A stretch of 42,061 bases of DNA, taken from an uncultured Clostridia bacterium (GTDB lineage: Bacteria > Bacillota > Clostridia > Oscillospirales > Acutalibacteraceae). A program made the translations under genes and the position numbers. The stretch is taken from positions 74,728 through 116,788 of the forward strand of contig CANRMX010000003.1 in assembly GCA_947631855.1 (NCBI GenBank), read 5' to 3'. This document shows positions 5,052 through 33,770 of the stretch, in pieces (position 1 is the first letter of the stretch; every line of letters starts with the position of its first letter). Under the pieces are notes generated by a model that was given only the letters and a program-made list of their open reading frames with translations, ran no database searches and had not been told where the DNA came from.

Positions 5052-7538
5052 TCAGTCCCGGTATTCCTCCATCATATAGGCTTCCAGAATATCGCCCTGC
5101 TTGATGTCGCTGAATTTCTCCAGCATGATGCCGCAGTCATAGCCGTCGGCCACTTCCCGCACGTCGTCCTTGAACCGCCGCAGGGAGGCCACCTTGTCGT
5201 CGGCGATGATGATGCCGTCCCGCACCAGCCGCACCAGTGCGCTGCGGGTGATCTTCCCCGCCGTCACGTGGCCGCCGATGACCATGCCCACGTTGGAGAT
5301 CTTGTAGGTCTCCCGGCACTCTGCCCGGCCCAGGAAGACCTCCCGGTACTTGGGGGCCAGCATGCCCTTCATGGCGCTTTCGATCTCCTCGATGCAGTCG
5401 TAGATGATCCGGTACAGTCGCATATCCACGCCGTCCCGCTTGGCGTTTTCCTCCGCTACCGGGTCGGGCCGCACGTTGAATCCCACGATGATGGCGTTGC
5501 TGGCGTTGGCCAGCATCACGTCGCTTTCGTTCACCGCGCCCACGGCCCCGTGGATGATATTCACCCGCACCTCCTCGTTGGAGAGCTTCTCCAGCGACTG
5601 GCGCACGGCCTCCACCGAGCCCTGCACATCGGCCTTGACGATGATCTTCAGCTCCTTCATCTCGCCCTCGCGCATCTGCTCGAACAGGTTATCCAGCGTG
5701 ACCTTGGTCTGGGCGCGGAAGGTCTCCTCCTTCTGCTCGCCCTTGCGCTGCTCCACCAGCTCCCTGGCCAGCCGCTCGTCGGAGACGGCGTTGAAGGTGT
5801 CGCCGCCGGTGGGCACGTCGCCCAGGCCGGTGATCTCCACCGGCACCGAAGGCCCGGCAGATTTCACTCTCCGCCCGCGTTCATCCATCATGGACCGCAC
5901 CCGGCCCACGGCAGTGCCTGCCACCACGATATCCCCCAGATTCAGGGTACCGTTTTCCACCAGCACCGTGGCGATGGGCCCCATGCCCTTGTCCAGCCGC
6001 GCCTCGATCACGGTGCCCCTAGCCGCCCGGTCGGGGTTGGCCTTGAGCTCCATCATGTCGGCGGTGAGGACGATCATCTCCAGCAGGTCGTCGATGCCCT
6101 CTTTCGTCACGGCGGAGACCGGCACGCAGGGGGTGTCGCCGCCCCATTCCTCGGGCACCAGATTGTATTCGGTGAGCTGTTCCTTCACCCGTTCCGGGTT
6201 GGCCCCGGGCTTGTCGATCTTGTTGATGGCCACGATGATGGACACCCCTGCCGCCTTGGCGTGGTTGATGGCCTCGATGGTCTGGGGCATGATGCCGTCG
6301 TCGGCCGCCACCACCAGCACCGCGATATCGGTGACCTGTGCGCCGCGGGCGCGCATGGTGGTGAACGCCGCATGGCCGGGGGTATCCAGGAAGGTGATCT
6401 CCCGGTCGCCCGTCTTGACCCGGTACGCGCCGATATGCTGGGTGATGCCGCCGGCCTCGCCCTCGGTGACGTTGGTGTGCCGGATCACGTCCAGGATGGA
6501 GGTCTTGCCGTGGTCCACGTGGCCCATGACCACCACCACCGGCGCGCGGGCGGTCAGGTTGGCCTCGTCGTCCTCGCTGTCGTCGATGATCTGTTCCTCG
6601 ATGGTGACCACCACTTCTTTTTCCACCTTGGCGTGGAATTCGTCCGCCACCAGCGAAGCGGTGTCGAAATCGATGGTGTCGTTGATGGCCGCGAACACGC
6701 CCATGCTCATCAGCTTTTTGATGACTTCCGGTGCGGAGACCTTCAGCCGCAGGGCGAATTCTCCCACGGTGATCTCGTCCGGCACCTCGATGGTGATGTG
6801 CTTCGCCTTGCGCTCCTGGGCGATGCGCTGCAGGCGCTGGGCCTCGGTCTCCCGCTTGCCTCTGCGCTGCTGGCCTCTGCGCTGCTGGTTCCGGTTGGTG
6901 AACTTCTGCTTGGTCACCACGTTGTCGGTACGCACCTTCTGGTCGGCCAGCCGGTCATATTTCTCGTTGTACCGGTCGATATTCACATTGGACGCCCGGG
7001 TATCCACCACCCTGCGCACCGCCGGCTTATGCTCACCGCCCTGAGGGCGATCACTTGGCTTGACCGCAGCTGGGTTCTTTTCGCCCTGCTTGCTCCCGGC
7101 CTGAGGCCGATCACTTGGCTTGACCGCAGCTGTGCTCTTTTCGCCCGTCTTGCTCCCGGCGCCCTGAGGGCGTTCACTTGGCTTACCGCCAGTTTGTGCT
7201 TTGTCGCCCGCCTTGCTCCCGGCCTGGGGCCGTTCGCCTGGCTTGCCGCCGGCCTGTGCTTGTTCCTCCTGGCTCTCGACGGCCACGGGCGTTTCTTCTG
7301 CCTCCGGCTCCTCCAGGACGATCTCCTCTTTGGTCTGCCGCTGGGCAAAATATTCCGTCAGGCTCTCCATGTTTCGGGTCTGGGTGAACACGTCGAAGAT
7401 CACGTCCAGCTCCGCTTCGTTGAGCACCGTCATGTATTTTTTCGGCTCCGTAAAATACTTCGCCAGCAGATCGATGACCTCCTTGTTGGAAATGCCCAGA
7501 TCCTTCGCCACTTCCCGTACCCGGTATTTAATCATCAT
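5052..7538 (-). CDS. infB: translation initiation factor IF-2
   Basis: GTPase that brings initiator fMet-tRNA to the 30S subunit and promotes subunit joining. Order of domains: IF2-N (residues 1-50, [21 protein letters not shown]), a linker with a tandem repeat array (about residues 95-168), a basic stretch ([15 protein letters not shown]), a second IF2-N module, then the G domain with GHVDHGKT (339-346), DTPGHAAF and NKID. Domains II, III and the C-terminal fMet-tRNA-binding domain follow, ending MMEEYRD. ATG 7538 is preceded by AAGGAGGAG; ATG 7535 is an equal alternative. The start overlaps the end of ylxQ by 11 bp. The linker repeats are the odd part: units of 20-21 residues built around KPSDRPQ and GSKxGEK, related to repeats in the GldG-like protein at 12.5-14.3 kb. 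Confidence 0.97.
7035..7256 (-). repeat. in-frame tandem repeat in the IF-2 linker (4 units of 60-63 bp)
   Basis: The plus strand shows four consecutive units, each with a TCACTTGGCTT-type core (7051, 7111, 7174, and degenerate at 7234), spaced 60, 63 and 60 bp, so the reading frame is kept. Each unit contains a short palindrome with variable but self-matching arms (GCCCTGAGGGC, GGCCTGAGGCC) and a TTTTCGCCCxxCTTGCTCCC segment. At protein level the unit is roughly [20 protein letters not shown]. The same unit type recurs at 14005-14208 in an unrelated gene. Confidence 0.85.
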
Positions 7539-7866
7539 CTCTTGCTTCTCCTCCTTGCTCTCGTTCCGTGGGCCCCGCCGCCGTGATCGCCTTTGCAAAA
7601 CCCTCGTCCAATACGCTTACCACGCCTGTCTTTATGCCGCAAGCCCGGCTGATCTCTGCCTGTGTCCGGGTGAGCCTGATCACCGGCGTCCCGGCCCGTT
7701 CCCCTTCAAATGTCAAATTCTTCCAGGTCTTCTCCGATATATCCCCGGCCGCCGCCAGCAGCCTTGCGCTGCCGTTTCTGGCCGCGGCCTTTGCCGCCTC
7801 GAATCCGATGGCCAGCTTGCCCGCCCGGCGGGCCAGCCCCAGCAGGGACAGGACCTTATCCTGCAT
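7528..7866 (-). CDS. ylxQ: L7Ae/L30e-like RNA-binding protein, YlxQ
   Basis: Small kink-turn RNA-binding protein of the L7Ae family, found with ribosomes or RNase P-type RNAs; its exact role in bacteria is not settled. From ATG 7866 ([21 protein letters not shown]) it has 112 residues. Visible family features are [11 protein letters not shown], an [20 protein letters not shown] stretch and the C-terminal [14 protein letters not shown]. It overlaps ylxR upstream and infB downstream by 11 bp each, so the three are tightly coupled. A longer version from 7896 is possible but overlaps ylxR more. Confidence 0.9.
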
Positions 7867-8158
7867 CCTTCCCCATCTCCTCTTCCAGCCGCGCATACAC
7901 CTCGTCGGGGATCTTGCAGGCGAAAGCGCGTTCCAGCCGCCGGGATTTCCGCGCCGCCCGGAGGCAGTCGGGGTCCTTGCACAGATATGCTCCCCGGCCC
8001 GGCTTTTTGCCGGTGAAGTCCAAACTGATCTCCTGGGGCAGGGGATTTCCCGCTTCGTCCGTTTTTTCCGGGCTGCGCACCACCCGCACCAGTTCTTTTT
8101 TCGGCTTCATCTCGCCGCACCCCGTGCACATCCGCATGGGGACTTTCCTTGGCCGCAT
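7856..8158 (-). CDS. ylxR: YlxR/RnpM family nucleic-acid-binding protein (DUF448)
   Basis: Small basic protein. In B. subtilis the family member (RnpM) is reported to bind and modulate RNase P RNA. The 100 residues begin MRPRKVPMRMCTGCGEMKPKKELVRVVR, showing the CxxC pair and the conserved basic surface. The GRGAYLC motif and CLRAARKSRRLERAF follow, the classic YlxR core. ATG 8158 has AAGGAGG at 8-nt spacing. It lies between nusA and ylxQ as in most Firmicutes. Confidence 0.93.
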   Translation of the reverse strand: MRPRKVPMRMCTGCGEMKPKKELVRVVRSPEKTDEAGNPLPQEISLDFTGKKPGRGAYLCKDPDCLRAARKSRRLERAFACKIPDEVYARLEEEMGKDAG

Positions 8159-8194
8159 TCCCTTCGCCTCCTTCGCGCCCTTGGCAAATTCCGC

Positions 8195-9277
8195 TCAGTC
8201 CTCGCCGTAGAATCCGCTTTCCGGCTTGATGTCGATCTTCCACCCGGTCAGCCGCGCCGCCAGCCGCACGTTCTGGCCCTTGTTGCCGATGGCCAGGGAA
8301 AGCTGATTGTCCGGCACCGTCACCTTGCAGGCCCGGGAGCCGTCCTCGGCGGGCTCCACGTTGAGCACCTTGGCGGGCGACAGCGCCGCCGCGATAAACG
8401 CCTTGGGGTCCTCGTTGTATTCGATGATGTCGATCTTTTCGCCGCCCAGCTCCGCCACGATCTCGGACACGCGCACGCCCCGGGTGCCGATGCACGCGCC
8501 CACGGCGTCCACGTCGGGGTTGTGGCTCAGCACCGCCATCTTGGTGCGGGAGCCCGCCTCCCGGGACACGCCTTTGATCTCCACGGTGCCGTCGTAGATT
8601 TCGGGCACCTCCGTTTCAAACATCCGCTTCACCAGATCGGGATGGGTGCGGGAAATAATGGCCTTGGGGCCCTTCTCGGTCTCCCGCACGTCCACCACGT
8701 ACACCTTGATGTAATCGCCCTCCCGGACGTTTTCACCGCCCACCTGCTCCACCTTGGGCAGGATCGCTTCCGCCTTGCCGATGCGCAGGGACAGCGCCCC
8801 GGTCTGGGGGTCCACCCGCTCCACCAGCGCGCTCACCAGCTCCTGGTGCTTGCTCTGGAATTCCTGCAGCATCTGGCCGCGCTCGCTGTCCCGGATGCCC
8901 TGCCGGATGATGTTCCGAGCGGTCTGGGCCGCCACCCGGCCAAACTGCTTGGTGTCCAGGGCGATGCCCACGAAACCGCCCACCTCGGCCATGGGGTCCA
9001 GCTGTTTGGCGCGCTCTAAAAGGATCTCCCGGTTGGGATTCTCCACTTCCTCCACCACTTCCTTCTGGAGGTACACGTCGAACTTGCCGGTGGCCGCGTC
9101 CACATCGATGGCCACTTCCTCGTTGCCATAGCTGTTCTTGCAGGCGGTGGAGATGGCCTTCTTGATCTTATCCAGCATGAATTCCACCGGGATGCCCTTT
9201 TCCTTTTCCAGCAGGACAAGCGCCTGGAACAGTTCTTCGTTGCCGACCTTTTCAGGTTCTTTCTTTTTCGATGCCAT
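8195..9277 (-). CDS. nusA: transcription termination/antitermination factor NusA
   Basis: RNA polymerase-binding factor that modulates pausing, termination and antitermination. The 360 residues are the standard length for Firmicutes NusA without extra C-terminal acidic repeats. Domains: N-terminal RNAP-binding domain (1 to about 130), S1 (about 135-200, VERVDPQTGALSLRIGKAEAILPK), KH1 with GACIGTRGVRVSEIVAELGG, and KH2 with LAIGKG-like LAIGNKGQNVRLAARLTGWKIDI. The ATG at 9277 follows GAGGGAGAGG. Second gene of the operon, 65 bp after rimP. Confidence 0.97.
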   Translation of the reverse strand: MASKKKEPEKVGNEELFQALVLLEKEKGIPVEFMLDKIKKAISTACKNSYGNEEVAIDVDAATGKFDVYLQKEVVEEVENPNREILLERAKQLDPMAEVGGFVGIALDTKQFGRVAAQTARNIIRQGIRDSERGQMLQEFQSKHQELVSALVERVDPQTGALSLRIGKAEAILPKVEQVGGENVREGDYIKVYVVDVRETEKGPKAIISRTHPDLVKRMFETEVPEIYDGTVEIKGVSREAGSRTKMAVLSHNPDVDAVGACIGTRGVRVSEIVAELGGEKIDIIEYNEDPKAFIAAALSPAKVLNVEPAEDGSRACKVTVPDNQLSLAIGNKGQNVRLAARLTGWKIDIKPESGFYGED

Positions 9278-9342
9278 AGTCCTCTCCCTCTTTAGAATGG
9301 TTTACTCCGTTGACGGCGCCGGGATTTTTTTGCGCCGCTCTG

Positions 9343-9840
9343 TTATAATTCTTCGTCTTCGTCCTCGGCCACGGCGTGGATCGCGGAGCAGTCCTTCTTC
9401 TGGACCGTCAGCGTACTGCCGTCCTCCAGCGCCAGGGAGACCTCCGCGCCCTCGCCGCCGGGGGCAAGGGTGCCGGTGAATTCCCGCCCGGCCTCGGTGG
9501 GGCGGATCAGCCGGATGTGCACCGGCCGGCCGGCGTAGGCCGTGAAGTGCTCCGGCCGGGTGAGCTTGCGCTCCAGCCCCGGAGAGGACACCTCCAGCAT
9601 ATATTCCTGGGGCACCGGGTCTTCCTCGTCCAGCACTGGGTCGATGGCGTGGGTCATCTCCACACAGTCGTCGATGGACACCCCGCCCTCTTTGTCGATG
9701 AGGATCCGCAAAAACCAGTCCGCGCCTTCCTTCATGTACTGTACGTCCCACAGGGTCAGTCCCAGCCCTTGGGCCAGGGGTTCCGCCAGCTCCCATACGC
9801 GGGCGGAGACGTTTCCTTTTTTTCCGGATTTTTGGGGCAT
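9343..9840 (-). CDS. rimP: ribosome maturation factor RimP
   Basis: Needed for 30S subunit assembly. The 165-residue protein runs from ATG 9840 (MPQKSGKKGNVSARVWELAE) and has the family motifs LGLTLWDVQY, LRILIDKEGGVSIDDC, and YMLEVSSPGLERKL (YxLEVSSPGxxRxL). The tail is acidic (AVAEDEDEEL). A much longer frame reaching 10329 is open in the same phase, but it would run backwards through the promoter and into spoVT. The 9840 start has a GGAAGGGAG site and matches the family. First gene of the nusA-infB operon. Confidence 0.95.
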   Translation of the reverse strand: MPQKSGKKGNVSARVWELAEPLAQGLGLTLWDVQYMKEGADWFLRILIDKEGGVSIDDCVEMTHAIDPVLDEEDPVPQEYMLEVSSPGLERKLTRPEHFTAYAGRPVHIRLIRPTEAGREFTGTLAPGGEGAEVSLALEDGSTLTVQKKDCSAIHAVAEDEDEEL

Positions 9841-9909
9841 ATTCTCTCCCTTCCTCCGACCTGTCCGGCGCCTTTTCGGCCCCGGTGATCGGTAAAGCCG
9901 GGTTGCGCT

Positions 9910-9942
9910 AAAGTGGGTGCAGCGTTTTGCTGCACCCACTTT
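9910..9942 (-). other. 14-bp hairpin at the 5' end of the rimP-operon mRNA
   Basis: A perfect 14-bp stem (AAAGTGGGTGCAGC with its complement, 5-nt loop) begins about 12 nt after the predicted transcription start. It is not followed by a T-run on either strand, so it is not a plain terminator. Likely roles are 5'-end protection of the mRNA or binding of a regulator. No known leader family was recognised. Confidence 0.6.
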
Positions 9943-9960
9943 CATCCCTATACTATGGCG

Positions 9961-9989
9961 ATTATAGCACTGTTCCCACGGAAAATCAA
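9961..9989 (-). promoter_or_regulatory. strong sigma-A promoter of the rimP-nusA-infB operon
   Basis: On the minus strand: -35 TTGATT (9984-9989), 17-bp spacer, and extended -10 TGCTATAAT (core 9961-9966). Predicted start near 9954, leaving a ~113-nt leader before rimP. Confidence 0.85.
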
Positions 9990-10016
9990 GGGTTTTTCTG
10001 CAAATCTTCCCGTTTT

Positions 10017-10556
10017 TTATGCTTCCAGCTGCCGGGAAAGGAACATGGCCGCCGCTTTCACGCTTTCCGCCGCCTCGCTGCTGAGCTTGGGCGGGGATTT
10101 CTCCCCCTTGAGCAGCACCACGCCGCCCATCACGTCTCCCACCGAGATCACCGGGAAAACCGCCAGCGCCGCCGCCGGCACGTCCTTGCAGGCCAGCACG
10201 GTGCCCTCGCCGTCGGTGATGAAGTTCCGCCGGGAGCGGAGCAGCTCGTCCAGCTGGGGCGCGATGCCCTTGTGCAGCAGGTCTTTCTTGGCGCTGCCCG
10301 CCACCGCGATGATCTGTTCCGTATCGCACACCGCCGCCCCGTGGCCGGTGAGGCTCACCAGCGCCTCGGCATAGGCCTGGGCCAGCTGGGACATCTCCCC
10401 CACGGGAGAATACTTTTTCAGGATCACCTCGCCGGACACGTCGGTGAAGATCTCCATGGGCATCCCTTCCCGAATTTTGAGGGTGCGGCGGATCTCCTTG
10501 GGGATCACCACCCGCCCCAGATCGTCGATCCTCCGCACGATCCCTGTCGCTTTCAT
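10017..10556 (-). CDS. spoVT: stage V sporulation transcription regulator SpoVT
   Basis: AbrB-family DNA-binding regulator that acts in the forespore late in sporulation. From ATG 10556 it has 179 residues, matching SpoVT (about 178). The N-terminal swapped-hairpin domain MKATGIVRRIDDLGRVVIPK...IREGMPMEIF is nearly canonical. The remainder is a GAF-like domain (about residues 55-178), ending SVKAAAMFLSRQLEA, which separates SpoVT from short AbrB/Abh proteins. The start has a GAGGT site 7 nt away; a longer in-frame start at 10613 lacks one. It is upstream of the rimP operon and separated from it by a promoter. Its presence is the main sign that the organism forms spores. Confidence 0.93.
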   Translation of the reverse strand: MKATGIVRRIDDLGRVVIPKEIRRTLKIREGMPMEIFTDVSGEVILKKYSPVGEMSQLAQAYAEALVSLTGHGAAVCDTEQIIAVAGSAKKDLLHKGIAPQLDELLRSRRNFITDGEGTVLACKDVPAAALAVFPVISVGDVMGGVVLLKGEKSPPKLSSEAAESVKAAAMFLSRQLEA

Positions 10557-10630
10557 ACGATTACCTCTTTCCTGTGTATTGATTTGGCCGCTGCAGCCGA
10601 AAAGTGTTTGCAAATTCGCTTGCGTGAGGT

Positions 10631-10659
10631 TAGTATTCGCCGGGAAACCGGGTTTATCC
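10631..10659 (-). promoter_or_regulatory. possible sigma-G-type promoter of spoVT
   Basis: On the minus strand, GGATA (10655-10659) and AATACTA (10631-10637) are separated by 17 bp, close to the forespore sigma-G pattern (GHATR, then CATnnTA), with one deviation in each box. It lies ~75 bp ahead of spoVT, a known sigma-G target in Bacillus. No good sigma-A promoter was seen in the same gap. Tentative. Confidence 0.35.
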
Positions 10660-10677
10660 TTTTTCGATTGATTTTTG

Positions 10678-10935
10678 CAGGCTGAGCCTGCACGCGCTTC
10701 GCGTTTCGCACGCTTTAGAGCGTGCTGGTGCGATTGAGAAACAACTCGGCCGGTCGCGGAACTTTTTGCCTGCTGGCCGAGGGTGCGTTGCTGTTTGTGC
10801 TCACTTTTGGGCGCGACCCAACGGACAGAGAAAAGTCCCTCCCCAATGGGGAGGGACGATTGCTATTGAGATTCACAGCCAATCGGTGCAGACATAGCAC
10901 ACCTTCGTCCTGCACGTAATTGATTCCGCGACCGG
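10678..10935. repeat. intergenic repeat block: direct and inverted copies of a GGTCGCG...CGCGACC element
   Basis: This 450-bp gene-free stretch (10557-11006) holds several repeats. At 10678-10692 is the palindrome GCAGGC-TGA-GCCTGC. At about 10703-10720 is GCACGCT-TTAG-AGCGTGC. At 10752-10818 is a 67-bp element ending in the inverted repeat GGTCGCG/CGCGACC. A partial copy lies inverted at about 10875-10935. The terminator at 10831-10857 sits between the two copies. Near-identical sequence occurs in the array at 33.2-33.7 kb. No coding potential is convincing here. Confidence 0.75.
10831..10857 (-). terminator. terminator of the ABC export operon
   Basis: A 10-bp perfect stem (GTCCCTCCCC with its complement, 3-nt loop) at 10835-10857 is followed on the minus strand by TTTTCTCT. 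It lies 150 bp downstream of the DUF4340 gene. A further hairpin, AACGGCG-TCA-CGCCGTT (10990-11006), starts at that gene's stop codon. Confidence 0.7.
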
Positions 10936-11006
10936 GCACTTGTTTCCAGCACTCACAAGCGCACGCAAACGTGCGCGTCACGCGTCGCGAAAACGGCGTC
11001 ACGCCG

Positions 11007-12482
11007 TTAGAAGAGGCTGGGAAGGTCTTCGCCGTTGAGGAGGGCGTCCAGATAGCGGACGACCTTGTCCACGTCGGCGGTGCGCATCTGGCCGTTGTAG
11101 TCGCCGTTGAGCAGGGCCGCGTAGCGGTCGGTACCGGCCTCACAGAACAGCACCTCGTCCGGGGCGGTGTTGTCGAAATACTCATAGCGGAGGCTGAGCA
11201 CCACGGCCTTTTCGTCATACTCCGTCTGCTCGGAGTTCAGCGCCGGGATGGCCATGGCCTGGCTGTAGAAATGCCGGTATTCGTCGGCGTCGATCTCCCC
11301 GCCGCCCTCCTCGGTGACGGCCAGATCGTAATTGGTCGTCGTTTCGGTGGAGGTCTCCTCGTTGACGGTGCGGGTGACATCGAACACATGGGTCTTGCCG
11401 TTGGCCGTCACCGTCAGGCGCTGCACGTTGTCCGCCTGGGCCACCATCACGTAGCTCATGCGCAGGGCGCCCAAAGACTGCTCCGCCCAGCAGGCCACGG
11501 TGTCCTTTGCCACCTGGTAGATCACGTCGTTGTTGTCGCACAGCAGATTCCGGTACCCGTCCGCCGCCGCGCTCACCGCCAGGGTGTGGGTCTGGCCGTT
11601 GAGGGTGAATTCCACCTGGGCAAAGGGCTCGTCCAGGCCGTATTCCGCCAGCAGCTCGTCGGTGATCCCCACCGCCATGACCTTGCTGGCCGTCAGGGAT
11701 TTCATCCCGTCGATCATTTCCAGGAAGGCCGTGTTGCCCGATTCCGCAGACACCGGCTCGGTGATGCGGTACTCGCTGAGCATCCCCTCGTCCCACTTCA
11801 CGGTGATGGGCTCCGGGAAATTGGTGCCGGTGAAGCGGATGGAGCTCATGAGATCATAGGCGGTGGCTCCGGCGGCCTGCTGCTCCTCGCTGAGCACCCG
11901 GTCGGAAATGGTATACAGAGAGGTGCTGATAAAGGCCGTGGGCGCTCCGTACAGCAGGCTGGACACCCCGGAAAGGATGTACACCTTGCCGTCTTTGAGC
12001 ACATACCGGCCGGAAGTCTCCGCGGCCTCGTTGCCCAGCACCAGCGTGTCCCCAGTGCCGTCGGTGTAGGTGATCTCCACCTCCGCCGCGTCCGCGCCTT
12101 TCAGGCCGAAATCCGCCAGATTGGCGATCTCGCCCAGCTCCCGGGCGGTGGAGGCGGAGAACAGGCTCTCCGCCGCGGTGCCTATGGAGCTTTCCAGCAA
12201 GTTGTAGTCGTCATAGCCCTCCAGGGTGAAGACCACGCCGTTCGCGCCCTGCTGCCCCAGCATCCGGTATTCGCCGTTGGGATTCTTCACCAGGATGGCT
12301 TCCACATCCCCTGCGCCGTGCTGGAACAGAGCTTCCTTTTCCGGCAGGGAGGCGGTTTGGGAGGACACAGGGTCTTCCTGCGCCTCTCCGGCCTGGGGCC
12401 AGAAGGCCACGGCGGCGGCCACGCCGCCCAGCACCGCCAGCACCAGCGCCAGGATCAATAGATTCCGCAAATTCTTCTTCAT
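11007..12482 (-). CDS. DUF4340-containing lipid-bilayer-anchored protein of an ABC export operon
   Basis: 491 residues with an N-terminal anchor (about residues 7-28, LLILALVLAVLGGVAAAVAF) and the rest predicted to be outside the membrane. There is no lipobox cysteine. The body shows the DUF4340 pattern: GDVEAILVKNPNGEYRML, a tyrosine-rich YDDYNLLESSIGTAAESLFS and repeated 'LVLGNEA...GRYVLKDGKVYILS' type beta segments, with a possible second copy of the domain in the C-terminal half. In other bacteria DUF4340 proteins are encoded next to GldG-like and ABC subunits and probably serve as an extracytoplasmic partner; substrate unknown. It begins 4 bp after the GldG-like gene and is the last gene of the operon. 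Confidence 0.8.
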   Translation of the reverse strand: MKKNLRNLLILALVLAVLGGVAAAVAFWPQAGEAQEDPVSSQTASLPEKEALFQHGAGDVEAILVKNPNGEYRMLGQQGANGVVFTLEGYDDYNLLESSIGTAAESLFSASTARELGEIANLADFGLKGADAAEVEITYTDGTGDTLVLGNEAAETSGRYVLKDGKVYILSGVSSLLYGAPTAFISTSLYTISDRVLSEEQQAAGATAYDLMSSIRFTGTNFPEPITVKWDEGMLSEYRITEPVSAESGNTAFLEMIDGMKSLTASKVMAVGITDELLAEYGLDEPFAQVEFTLNGQTHTLAVSAAADGYRNLLCDNNDVIYQVAKDTVACWAEQSLGALRMSYVMVAQADNVQRLTVTANGKTHVFDVTRTVNEETSTETTTNYDLAVTEEGGGEIDADEYRHFYSQAMAIPALNSEQTEYDEKAVVLSLRYEYFDNTAPDEVLFCEAGTDRYAALLNGDYNGQMRTADVDKVVRYLDALLNGEDLPSLF

Positions 12483-12486
12483 AGGC

Positions 12487-14304
12487 TTACAGGTGCCTCC
12501 TCTTGAGGAAGATCACCAGACCCACGATGAGGATCACCACAGGCAGGCCGATGGTGAACACGCCCAGGCCCAGCAGGGTGATGGTCTGGGCCGACATGCT
12601 GATGTCCATGGTGTTGGTCTGCACGGGATTGGAATACACCGTGACGGAGCTGCCGCCGGTGCCCGTGCCGTAGCGCATCAGGTCGGTGAGATACTGACCG
12701 TTGTCAAAGGCGGAGGTATTCACCAGGTTGTCGATAAATACATAGGAGGAGCCGAACACGAACAGGTTCCGCCGGTAGTCTTCGCCGTCCAGCTGGACGT
12801 ATTTGATGGAGACCGTGGCGGTGGTCTGCACGCCGGTGCTGGGGTTTTCCTTCTCCGCCTCGGTCATGTCGTCGGTGACCACATAGCCCGTGTCGGCGGT
12901 CTGCCACAGCCACTGGGCGCCGATATCGCCCACGCCGGAGAACAGCACCGTCAGCGGCGAGCTGTAGGGTGCGGTGAGCAGGCTATAGGAGCCGTCCATC
13001 ACGTCCGTGTTGGGGTTCATCAGCACGAAGGCCTCGTCGTAGCTGGCCTGGCGGCTGTCGTCACTTTCATACACCATGCCGGGCTCCACCCGCACGCCCC
13101 ATTCCTCCAGGAAACGGGCCAGATTGGGCAGCTCGCCCTGCTGGGGATGGCAGGTGACGATCAGGTTCAGGTTGTCCTTGCGCTCCTCGTCGTCCATATA
13201 GGCGCGGATCTTCTCCAGCTCGCCCTCGGAGTAATCGTTGGTGGGGGTGGGCAGCATCAGGATCTGGGTGTTCTCGGGCAGCTCCTCGGTGAGGATGTTG
13301 AAGGTGGTCACCTCATAATTCTGCCGCTCCATCAGGGTGGTGAAGTCGTTAAGGCTGCCGTCCAGCATATCCCCATGGCCCAGGGCGATGGCCACCACCG
13401 GCACCTTGTCCATGTTCGCGATCTCCATCGCGCCGGCCAGCGAACTGTCCACGTTGGTGTAGGTGCGGATCTGGCCGGTGGAGCTGTCCTGGGTCATGTC
13501 GAACAGGTCGTCGGGCCGCAGCACCTTGTGGCGCTTATCGGTCTCCACCAGCACGCAGCCGCTGGTGAGGGATTCATCCGCATACTTGGAGATGAAATCG
13601 GGATTGAGGTCGGGGTCCACGAATTCCATGGAGATGAGGGGATTGCACTCCACCAGCCGCTCCGCCAGGTTGGCCACCTGGCTGAATTCCAGCCCGTAAC
13701 TGCTGTACAGCTGGTCTTTGCGGTAGGCGTCCTCAGAGCCGATGAGGTAGATGCGCGTTTCGTTCTGCACGCCCTCGGCCACGGTCTGCGCCTGTTCGGA
13801 AAGGGTGTTGAAGCCCTGGGCGGTCATGTCGATATTCATGGAGGGGAAGCGGTCGGTGAGCAGGCTCACCAGGATGTTGATCACCACCACCACGGCCACG
13901 AAGATCACGGTGAGCAGGGTGGCCATGCCGCCCCGCTTGAACTTCTCCGTGCGCAGCAATCTCATGATCGACTTCTTCTTACTTTGGCCCGCAGTCGCTG
14001 CGGTATCGGCAGCCTGAGGCTGTTCACTTGGCTTACCGATAGTTTCTTCTTTTTCGCCCGTCTCGCTCCCGGCAGCCTGAGGCTGCGCGCTCTTGACTTG
14101 ACCAACAGTTTCTGTGTTGTCGCCCGACTGGCTCCCGTCAGCCTGAGCGCCCTGAGGGCGTTCACTTGGCTTATCGGTAGTTTCTTCTTTTTCGCCTGTC
14201 TGGCCGGTGGGTTGCTCGACGGCCTCTGCGGGCTCTTCCGTCTGGCCCTCGGGCCGGGTATTGGGCTCGTTCTCCTGCTCGGGCAGGTCGTTATAGTAAT
14301 CCAT
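12487..14304 (-). CDS. GldG-like ABC transporter auxiliary protein with a repeat-bearing cytoplasmic tail
   Basis: 605 residues. A disordered N-terminal tail (1 to about 110) carries three in-frame repeat units rich in KPSE-PQ and GEKEET (about residues 33-100). A first membrane span (about 127-150) is followed by a large external domain of the GldG/ABC-type uncharacterised family (NTLSEQAQTVAEGVQNETRIYLIGS, VVAIALGHGD, NYEVTTFNI, ILMLPTPTNDYSEGELEKI), and a second span lies near the C-terminus (about 577-601) before KRRHL. The ATG at 14304 has a perfect AGGAGGTG site. In Bacteroidetes GldG is needed for gliding, but in Firmicutes homologues are simply part of an ABC exporter of unknown cargo. 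The N-terminal tail is the unusual feature. Confidence 0.82.
   Translation of the reverse strand: MDYYNDLPEQENEPNTRPEGQTEEPAEAVEQPTGQTGEKEETTDKPSERPQGAQADGSQSGDNTETVGQVKSAQPQAAGSETGEKEETIGKPSEQPQAADTAATAGQSKKKSIMRLLRTEKFKRGGMATLLTVIFVAVVVVINILVSLLTDRFPSMNIDMTAQGFNTLSEQAQTVAEGVQNETRIYLIGSEDAYRKDQLYSSYGLEFSQVANLAERLVECNPLISMEFVDPDLNPDFISKYADESLTSGCVLVETDKRHKVLRPDDLFDMTQDSSTGQIRTYTNVDSSLAGAMEIANMDKVPVVAIALGHGDMLDGSLNDFTTLMERQNYEVTTFNILTEELPENTQILMLPTPTNDYSEGELEKIRAYMDDEERKDNLNLIVTCHPQQGELPNLARFLEEWGVRVEPGMVYESDDSRQASYDEAFVLMNPNTDVMDGSYSLLTAPYSSPLTVLFSGVGDIGAQWLWQTADTGYVVTDDMTEAEKENPSTGVQTTATVSIKYVQLDGEDYRRNLFVFGSSYVFIDNLVNTSAFDNGQYLTDLMRYGTGTGGSSVTVYSNPVQTNTMDISMSAQTITLLGLGVFTIGLPVVILIVGLVIFLKRRHL
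14005..14208 (-). repeat. in-frame repeat in the GldG-like gene, related to the infB repeat
   Basis: Three units with the AGTTTCT landmark at 14041, 14107 and 14179 (spacings 66 and 72 bp, both multiples of 3). They share with infB the segments TTCACTTGGCTT, TTTTTCGCCCGTCTxGCTCCC and the palindromes AGCCTGAGGCT and GCCCTGAGGGC. Encoded consensus is about GSxTGEKEETxxKPSEQPQA. Confidence 0.82.
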
Positions 14305-33231: not shown

Positions 33232-33730
33232 CGGCCAGGCCAAGTCGCGCTTCGCACGCTTGAGGCGTGCTGGCGAGTACAGGAAATTACTATACAGGTC
33301 GCGGAATTTACTGTGTGCGGGAAACTGGTGAGCTTTGCTTGTCTTTCGGTTTGTTTTGACTTTTGGGCGCGACCACGCATTCGTAGTTTGATGACAATTT
33401 TCCCGCGAATTGCATGCGGCCTCAGGCCGCCGCGGAATTTTTTGCGTGCTGGACGAAGGCGGGCTGTTGTTTGTACTAACTATCGGGCGCGACCACTTAT
33501 CTACGGTTTGATGACAACTTTCCCGCGTCTTGGCAGCGGGCCCTGCCCGCCGCGGAATTTACTGTGTGCGGGAAACTGGTGAGCTTTGCTTGTCTTGTGG
33601 TCTGCGCTCACTCTCGGGCGCGACTACTTATCTGTGGTTTACTGGAAACTTTCTTGCGTCTTGGCAGCGGGCCCTGCCCGCCGCGGAATTTTTTGCCTGC
33701 GGGCCGAGGGTGCGCTTCAACGACAATCTA
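33232..33730. repeat. A-B-A-B repeat array between mnmE and mnmG
   Basis: GCGGAATTT marks the start of four units at 33301, 33432, 33552 and 33683 (steps 131, 120, 131). Units 1 and 3 share ACTGTGTGCGGGAAACTGG and GAGCTTTGCTTGTCT. Units 2 and 4 share TTTTGCxTGCxGGxCGA. Unit 1 is bounded by GGTCGCG (33297-33303) and CGCGACC (33368-33374). Units 2 and 3 keep CGCGACC/CGCGACT. Each unit ends in a palindrome (GCGGCC-TCA-GGCCGC, or GCGGGC-CCT-GCCCGC twice). Before mnmG there are four short tandem CAATCTA/CAATTTA copies (33724-33751). The array resembles sequence at 10.70-10.94 kb. No gene is seen in this 547-bp gap. Confidence 0.85.
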
Positions 33731-33770
33731 CAATCTACAATTTACAATCTACTTAGAGGAGAGGAACGCT

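Follow-up and report, generated by a model that had tools for sequence, protein, structure and literature searches.

Tandem in-frame units in infB and a GldG-like gene of an uncultured Clostridia bacterium are related as DNA to a palindromic, mostly intergenic repeat family

We analyzed a 42,061-nucleotide stretch of contig CANRMX010000003.1 (positions 74,728 to 116,788 of the forward strand; assembly GCA_947631855.1) from an uncultured Clostridia bacterium of the family Acutalibacteraceae; this whole stretch is hereafter called the window. It contains infB, the gene of translation initiation factor IF-2, and a GldG-like gene (ABC_transp_aux), each of which carries a tandem array of short repeat units. 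The two arrays are homologous at the DNA level to each other and to copies located between genes. With a probability of about 80%, we regard the units as tandem copies, kept in frame, of an extragenic family resembling the repetitive extragenic palindromic (REP) sequences, which has expanded in this species and supplies disordered linker to the two genes.

Two coding arrays related at the DNA level

Both arrays are on the minus strand (Table 1). In infB, the linker that separates the two IF2_N regions holds three full units plus a partial one; in the GldG-like gene, two full units with partial ends are found in the tail that precedes the first membrane helix. Each unit is closed by a palindrome, which is perfect in six of the seven copies and imperfect in the first infB copy. 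The palindrome centres are found at 7226, 7166, 7103 and 7043 in infB (spacing 60, 63 and 60 bp) and at 14154, 14079 and 14016 in the GldG-like gene (75 and 63 bp). A preliminary description of this DNA had located the arrays correctly, and its statement that all spacings are multiples of three holds for all five palindrome spacings. Its unit length of 60–63 bp is right for infB, whereas the 66–72 bp given for the GldG-like gene should read 63 and 75 bp. As for the DNA words that it listed as common, both arrays contain GCTCCCGGC and TTCACTTGGCTT, whereas TTTTTCGCCCGTCT is one T too long and has no exact match in infB; the real stretch behind it is 13 nt common to both arrays, AGACGGGCGAAAA on the coding strand. 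The unit-end palindrome had been overlooked, as had the longest stretch common to both arrays, the 27-nt TAAGCCAAGTGAACGCCCTCAGGGCGC. The units are hydrophilic and rich in G, K, P, A, S and Q, and Pfam finds nothing in either repeat segment.

Translation of the infB units is not in doubt, because they are flanked by conserved domains. The GldG-like tail has a frame that is open throughout, starting with an ATG at 14304 preceded by AGGAGGTG, which by eye is a putative ribosome-binding site. The start codon, this upstream sequence and the first residues resemble those of the congener G022 (MDYYNDLPEQEN / MEFYDNNLPEEEN).

In a DNA search of the own genome, the infB array matched the GldG array at E 3.8e-22. 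The alignment of the two scores 129, which was reached by none of 1000 synonymous resamplings of the GldG array (maximum 78) and by none of 1000 in which both arrays were resampled (maximum 91). Since no resampling reaches the score and 27 nt are identical, the arrays are related as DNA and not as peptide alone. The same codon is used at all 12 identical residues of infB_u1 and gld_u3 (6.6 expected), including codons seldom used in the counted genes (ACT 0.02, GGT 0.04, CCA 0.04, AGT 0.05 and CCT 0.05). The remaining eight unit pairs also exceed expectation, yet more weakly, the least being infB_u2/gld_u1 with 7 of 11 versus 6.1. Codon usage is unusual in both arrays; scores as low occur in 9 (GldG) and 10 (infB) of 406 gene windows. 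Furthermore, each array holds three perfect 11-nt palindromes, a number that 4 of 2000 resamplings reach for infB and none of 2000 for GldG, and this perfection is kept although the encoded residues vary (RPQG, RPQA, QPQA). The palindrome could be maintained by selection on DNA or RNA structure, or by template-switch correction of imperfect palindromes as described in PMC8604942 and PMC8794818.

Alternatively, the peptide may be a functional short motif that binds a common partner and was selected in both proteins, with the DNA likeness resulting from recent copying of a useful domain. The two segments share the strand, the frame and a similar peptide (KPSERPQ / GEKxxT), and the same frame is not forced, because three to four of the six reading frames of the coding units are open. 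However, the core of gld_u2 is read in another frame (GQVKSAQPQ, versus GKPSEQPQ in gld_u3), indicating that the peptide varies even among the units of the GldG array. The palindrome symmetry is held through the residue changes given above, the unit was not seen in the orthologues of 25 congeners for infB and 25 for GldG, and the shared rare codons, the palindromes and the intergenic copies described below are left unexplained by a shared partner. We regard this explanation as quite unlikely.

Intergenic copies and the wider repeat family

A third locus with head-to-tail units was found at C10:30784-30897, between a MoxR-type ATPase gene and a 622-aa open reading frame (ORF) without a Pfam match. 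The infB array matched it at E 4.9e-16 and 77% in the own-genome DNA search, and the scores against it, 99 for infB and 68 for GldG, were not reached in any of 1000 synonymous resamplings of either array. The open frame at this locus runs antisense into the 622-aa ORF; therefore, the C10 array was taken as non-coding. Its period is 66 and 66 bp, and that of the intergenic C4 locus is also 66 bp, unlike neighbouring copies at C22 and C36, which are 69, 70 and 40 bp apart. Four to five of the six frames are open in the intergenic 66-bp units. A model of the full unit (R1) was built from six units of the infB, GldG and C10 loci, and 150 of 856 own-genome candidates were scored. This gave at least 24 matches, 11 of them in the three loci, the other 13 (E 4.1e-5 to 0.09) covering only part of the model. 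Among the 28 other genomes of the genus (congeners), the best R1 match had E 0.016, and none was on contigs carrying infB or GldG.

Between genes, a module usually consists of a GC-rich hairpin joined by a short linker to the core GGTCAAGCCAAGTG, with GCRGCCTCAGGCYGC as its short palindrome. A second model (R2), comprising core and palindrome and reported to E ≤ 0.1, yielded at least 77 matches in the own genome, at least 25 of them at E < 1e-6; these counts are neither independent nor complete, because the model was trained on 16 rows and 150 of 1831 candidates were scored. The surroundings of 67 of the 77 were examined, and 50 were intergenic, 11 at gene ends, three in infB and three in the GldG tail, so that nearly all examined copies lie between genes or at their ends. 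Ten of the gene-end matches overlap the gene by 1–10 nt, and one (C56) is wholly within the last codons. Many of the weaker matches are the palindrome only, and flanks differ from copy to copy. The best R2 matches among the congeners were E 3e-8 (G022) and then 1.8e-4. G022 has one intergenic core copy (L227, 1442-1475), a looser match followed by another palindrome, GCAGGCTCCGCCTGC; the core thus probably predates the species. Of the exact core 13-mer, the own genome has eight copies (two in infB) and the 28 congeners none; within the family, single copies occur in 10 of 397 other genomes, with nine hits for the reversed control. The 19-mer GGGTGCAGCGTCACGCTGC was present in 2 of 398 genomes across the phylum, namely the own genome (two copies) and one from another family of the same order (six copies).

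The palindrome has a 6-bp stem and a TCA loop, and 97.9% of alignment cells are paired. Two-sided changes were observed in four of the six pairs, as reached by 3 of 500 shuffles; the covariation score was reached by 0 of 500 and the further pair types by 18 of 500. A pattern for it matched 39 times in the own genome and 72 times among the congeners (19 of 28 with a match), compared with five matches of a reversed control over all 29 genomes. Of the 72 congener copies, 62 read GCAGCGTCACGCTGC, and 29 of the 39 own-genome copies have the doubly changed centre CCTCAGG, the same as in the coding units. The 39 own-genome copies were called intergenic in 36 cases (one of them the GldG tail), at gene ends in two and within a gene in one. 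For the congener matches, 44 distinct contexts were examined, with 36 intergenic, two at gene edges and six inside genes. Four of these six have no GGGT lead. The other two are L182, where the palindrome is located ~40 nt in from the edge of a gene call with a weak score, and L180, whose peptide we take to be part of a conserved glutamate-dehydrogenase motif; on this assumption L180 was considered a chance match and not a further coding copy. Further coding candidates in the own genome are a C5 palindrome in a gene, without the core, and the C56 copy in the last codons of a gene.

The exact 21-mer TTGGGTGCAGCGTCACGCTGC, a palindrome of the genus type with a TTGGGT lead, was found in 14 stretches of 13 IMG/VR viral contigs (L299-L312). 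As their surroundings are mostly different, the palindrome with this lead occurs well outside this genome. The species-specific core was found in no IMG/VR contig, and spread of this core by phage was therefore rejected. Several own-genome palindrome copies start right at the stop codon of a gene, with the same end toward the gene and a 1-nt overlap (L296 at 3822, L297 at 1374, L282 at 1414, L286 at 1394, L287 at 1499 and L290 at 1407), and some viral-contig copies likewise run directly into TTA or TCA; the stop codon may be a preferred site of the palindrome. At the curated gathering score, the sole Rfam match in the window, L050, L051 and L053 was a tRNA that lies apart from the repeats in L051, so that a known RNA family was rejected. 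Other modular intergenic repeats, such as AAGTGAAGTTCTTTTTGCTTACTTTTTCTTTCAAGAAAAAG and CGCTATTTGAGCGCAGCGAAAATTGCG, alternate with the core at L054, L095 and L052 of the own genome, which is a mosaic of short hairpin modules. The window also contains a tandem repeat of ACAATCT (4.3 copies, 33723-33752).

Table 1. Features in the window. Unit rows follow the core-to-X phase of model R1; the codon and indel comparisons in the text cut the units from X to core (labels such as infB_1, GldG_1, infB_u1 and gld_u3).
Feature	Position	Strand	Match	Remarks
infB (translation initiation factor IF-2)	5052..7598	-	Pfam IF2_N, GTP_EFTU, IF-2	25 congener orthologue linkers; start codon 7538 by homology
infB unit 1	7190..7249	-	R1, C3:81917-81976, E 2.7e-14 (training set)	degenerate core AAGCCAGGCGAACGGCCCCAGG
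infB unit 2, 63 bp	7127..7189	-	R1, C3:81854-81916, E 1.3e-16 (training set)	core GGTAAGCC (-1) with 3-nt spacer (-2), form common to GldG, by alignment
infB unit 3, 60 bp	7067..7126	-	R1, C3:81794-81853, E 5.5e-16 (training set)	
infB last partial unit	7031..7066	-	R1, C3:81758-81793, E 3.4e-5	core and palindrome only
GldG-like gene (ABC_transp_aux, PF09822)	12487..14304	-	Pfam	N-terminal tail precedes first membrane helix
GldG first half-unit	14179..14204	-	R1, C3:88906-88931, E 0.07 (weak)	X part, GQTGEKEET
GldG full unit 1	14106..14177	-	R1, C3:88833-88904, E 9.6e-15 (training set)	core, palindrome, 9-12-nt extra and X part
GldG full unit 2	14041..14103	-	R1, C3:88768-88830, E 2.3e-15; R2, C3:88798-88831, E 8.1e-11 (both training set)	core with intergenic-type GGTCAAG and 5-nt spacer retained
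GldG last partial unit	14007..14038	-	R1, C3:88734-88765, E 1.3e-5	core and palindrome
Palindrome copy without core, GCGGCCTCAGGCCGC	33411..33431	+	R2, C3:108138-108158, E 3.5e-4	model positions 14-34; intergenic by codon-based caller
Weak palindrome-only match	10676..10699	-	R2, C3:85403-85426, E 0.05	intergenic, between ORF 10017-10613 and DUF4340 gene

Unit-free orthologues and frame-keeping indels

No unit was seen in the infB linkers of the 25 congeners in which they are complete (G022 is broken in the linker, and G014 and G015 are without one), nor in the GldG tails of 25 of the 28 congeners (no tail was found in G011, G014 and G027). The preliminary description had named an ancient domain shared by orthologues and a lack of further copies as outcomes that would speak against it. 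The orthologues examined are without the tails, and an ancient shared domain is thus not supported; further DNA copies are present in the genome, mostly intergenic. Between fixed anchors, the infB linker has 112 aa here compared with 54–132 (median 79, n=25) in the congeners, and therefore falls inside the naturally occurring range. Among the GldG tails, that of this genome, with 121 aa, exceeds all others, which reach at most 97. The infB linkers of the relatives vary freely in length and are rich in P, A, K, E and Q, which fits the view that the unit is tolerated as a linker. The break in the G022 assembly (end of L225, start of L226) is in a GC-rich stretch of infB coding for P and A; its contig ends are P/A-rich and have no 9-mer in common with the units, and this linker was rejected as a carrier. 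A second tandem repeat in infB, of 15 bp at window 6854-6888, encodes an RRGQQRRG stretch, and this peptide is common to many congeners.

Of the five full coding units, four differ from the intergenic 66-bp form by a loss of 2 nt in the spacer and a compensating loss of 1 nt upstream; GldG_1 has neither. There are two distinct 1-nt losses, one changing GGTCAAG to GGTAAG (infB_1 and GldG_2) and one slightly upstream (infB_2 and infB_3). The paired losses would change the reading GQVKSAQPQ into GKPSEQPQ. A 3-nt spacer was observed in 0 of 26 non-coding rows. The form with GGTAAG and the 3-nt spacer is present in both infB and GldG, where a 17-nt run across it is identical, and the 27-nt run identical between the genes extends from TAAGCC through the palindrome. 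By comparison, identical runs shared with 14 other intergenic loci reach at most 17 nt in infB and 21 nt in GldG. Because the coding-adapted variant is common to both genes, it points to copying between infB and GldG and not to two independent insertions; one gene would then have received the coding form from the other.

The same comparison bears on an origin within a gene, that is, a unit that arose through local duplication in one of the two linkers, infB or GldG, and spilled into the intergenic C10 site, the family likeness being limited to core and palindrome. In agreement with this, the full unit with its X half is strong only in infB, GldG and C10. However, four of the five coding units have indels that C10 does not have, and the C10 palindrome has the centre CGTCACG, as in 62 of the 72 congener copies, compared with CCTCAGG in the coding units. 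Moreover, core and palindrome occur together at many intergenic loci, and the core once in G022 with another palindrome. Such an origin seems unlikely to us. An assembly or binning artefact, producing a chimeric contig in a metagenome-type assembly, is very improbable. The genome consists of 59 contigs at 81% completeness, and in the G022 assembly the infB linker is interrupted by a contig break, but GldG, nusA and infB have the same order and strand in G022 and both frames are intact. The arrays are not a single sequence pasted in twice, since each is distinct from the other and both are distinct from the copies between genes.

Origin of the units and comparison with known repeats

For the extragenic origin that we favour, we propose that one 66-bp intergenic module would have entered one of the two genes, at a disordered linker largely insensitive to length and sequence. 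After entry, 1 and 2 nt would have been lost with the frame kept, the array would have grown in tandem through ordinary repeat recombination or slippage, and the coding-adapted form would have been copied to the other gene ~7 kb off. The unit peptide, predicted from its composition to be disordered, may be neutral and would serve as a plain hydrophilic spacer in IF-2 and the GldG-like tail; the family itself may move as a mobile element. The preliminary description had likewise read the arrays as a small repeat that spreads into coding DNA and is tolerated as a linker, and the orthologues without tails, the intergenic copies and the variable linkers support this. More tentatively, and with some doubt, a non-coding REP-like repeat might have turned into a coding, frame-adapted repeat whose DNA spreads between genes of this species and replaces the natural linkers of the essential IF-2 and a membrane protein while the palindrome is kept.

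Several points weigh against the extragenic origin. No mobile-element hallmark was found; the Y1 transposase family PF01797 has no match in the own genome, which is 81% complete, so that a REP transposase as the mover finds no support there; PF01797 matches are present in 9 of the 29 genomes of the genus. As only two genes are known with the unit, both within one 10-kb stretch, a single local event would be enough. The full unit was found at only three loci, by a model trained on those loci, and its X half has no clear counterpart outside them; the longest identity to C10 is 14 nt for infB and below 12 nt for GldG. Both R1 and R2 were built from copies that they find, and their counts are partial and biased to the input forms. 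Spacing in multiples of three alone proves little, because the intergenic period is itself 66 bp, and the aligner also opens a 1-nt gap in the intergenic C4, whose X part is not confidently alignable. Finally, the codon-based caller left the GldG tail outside the gene, so that its translation rests on the conserved start and the open frame; N-terminal intragenic REPs are described as possibly misannotated (PMC3733652).

Among known systems, the Rickettsia palindromic element (RPE), to which the preliminary description had likened the units, is described as a repeat that bears a palindrome and occurs both in intergenic DNA and, in frame, within conserved genes unrelated to one another, where it is apparently tolerated (PMC2229807, PMC10969869). 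The likeness holds in principle, since infB, GldG and the intergenic C10 all have the unit. It does not extend to size and termini: by the descriptions in these two sources, RPEs measure 105–146 or about 150 bp, have 12-bp terminal inverted repeats, fold as a single long stem-loop and occur in many genes, whereas the units here are 60–75 bp, tandem, with an 11–15-nt palindrome at one end, and occur in two genes. The GTAG and CGTC REPs are described as many short palindromes that stand alone or in groups and have alternative complementary residues in their stems, and their intragenic dimers or groups as encoding 20–30 aa that may be neutral in flexible linkers (PMC3733652). Similarly, our family is multicopy and mostly extragenic (36 of 39 palindrome copies; 50 of 67 R2 matches), and its 6-bp stem, TCA loop and two-sided changes in four of six pairs resemble the GTAG REP, with its 6–13-bp stem and mostly 2–3-nt loop. 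In contrast to these REPs, no GTAG or CGTC stands beside the stem in the copies aligned (the 16-row alignment and further contexts), and a long conserved core, GGTCAAGCCAAGTG, precedes it. Tandem growth and frame-restoring indels also set the units apart from known intragenic REPs and RPEs. PARCEL repeats, described as tandem coding repeats with dyad symmetry that are thought to spread within genomes (PMC2996958), resemble the units in these respects; by that description they have a conserved amphipathic 25-residue motif, in contrast to the hydrophilic units and the largely non-coding family of this genome. The case thus works like the RPE and the intragenic REP, yet lacks one tested defining feature of each. 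Among the titles and abstract openings listed in searches of open-licence PubMed Central papers, none named this repeat or IF-2 linker repeats.

The concept is already known from the RPE and the intragenic REP of other bacteria, which limits the surprise. Here, however, intergenic relatives, coding copies, frame-restoring indels and unit-free orthologues come together in one traceable case of DNA from a between-gene repeat that has apparently become part of an essential protein. This makes testable both the turnover of disordered linkers and the persistence of palindromes in coding DNA, whether through selection or template switching. If the more tentative reading given above is true, an extragenic repeat family would be en route to becoming a protein-linker family.

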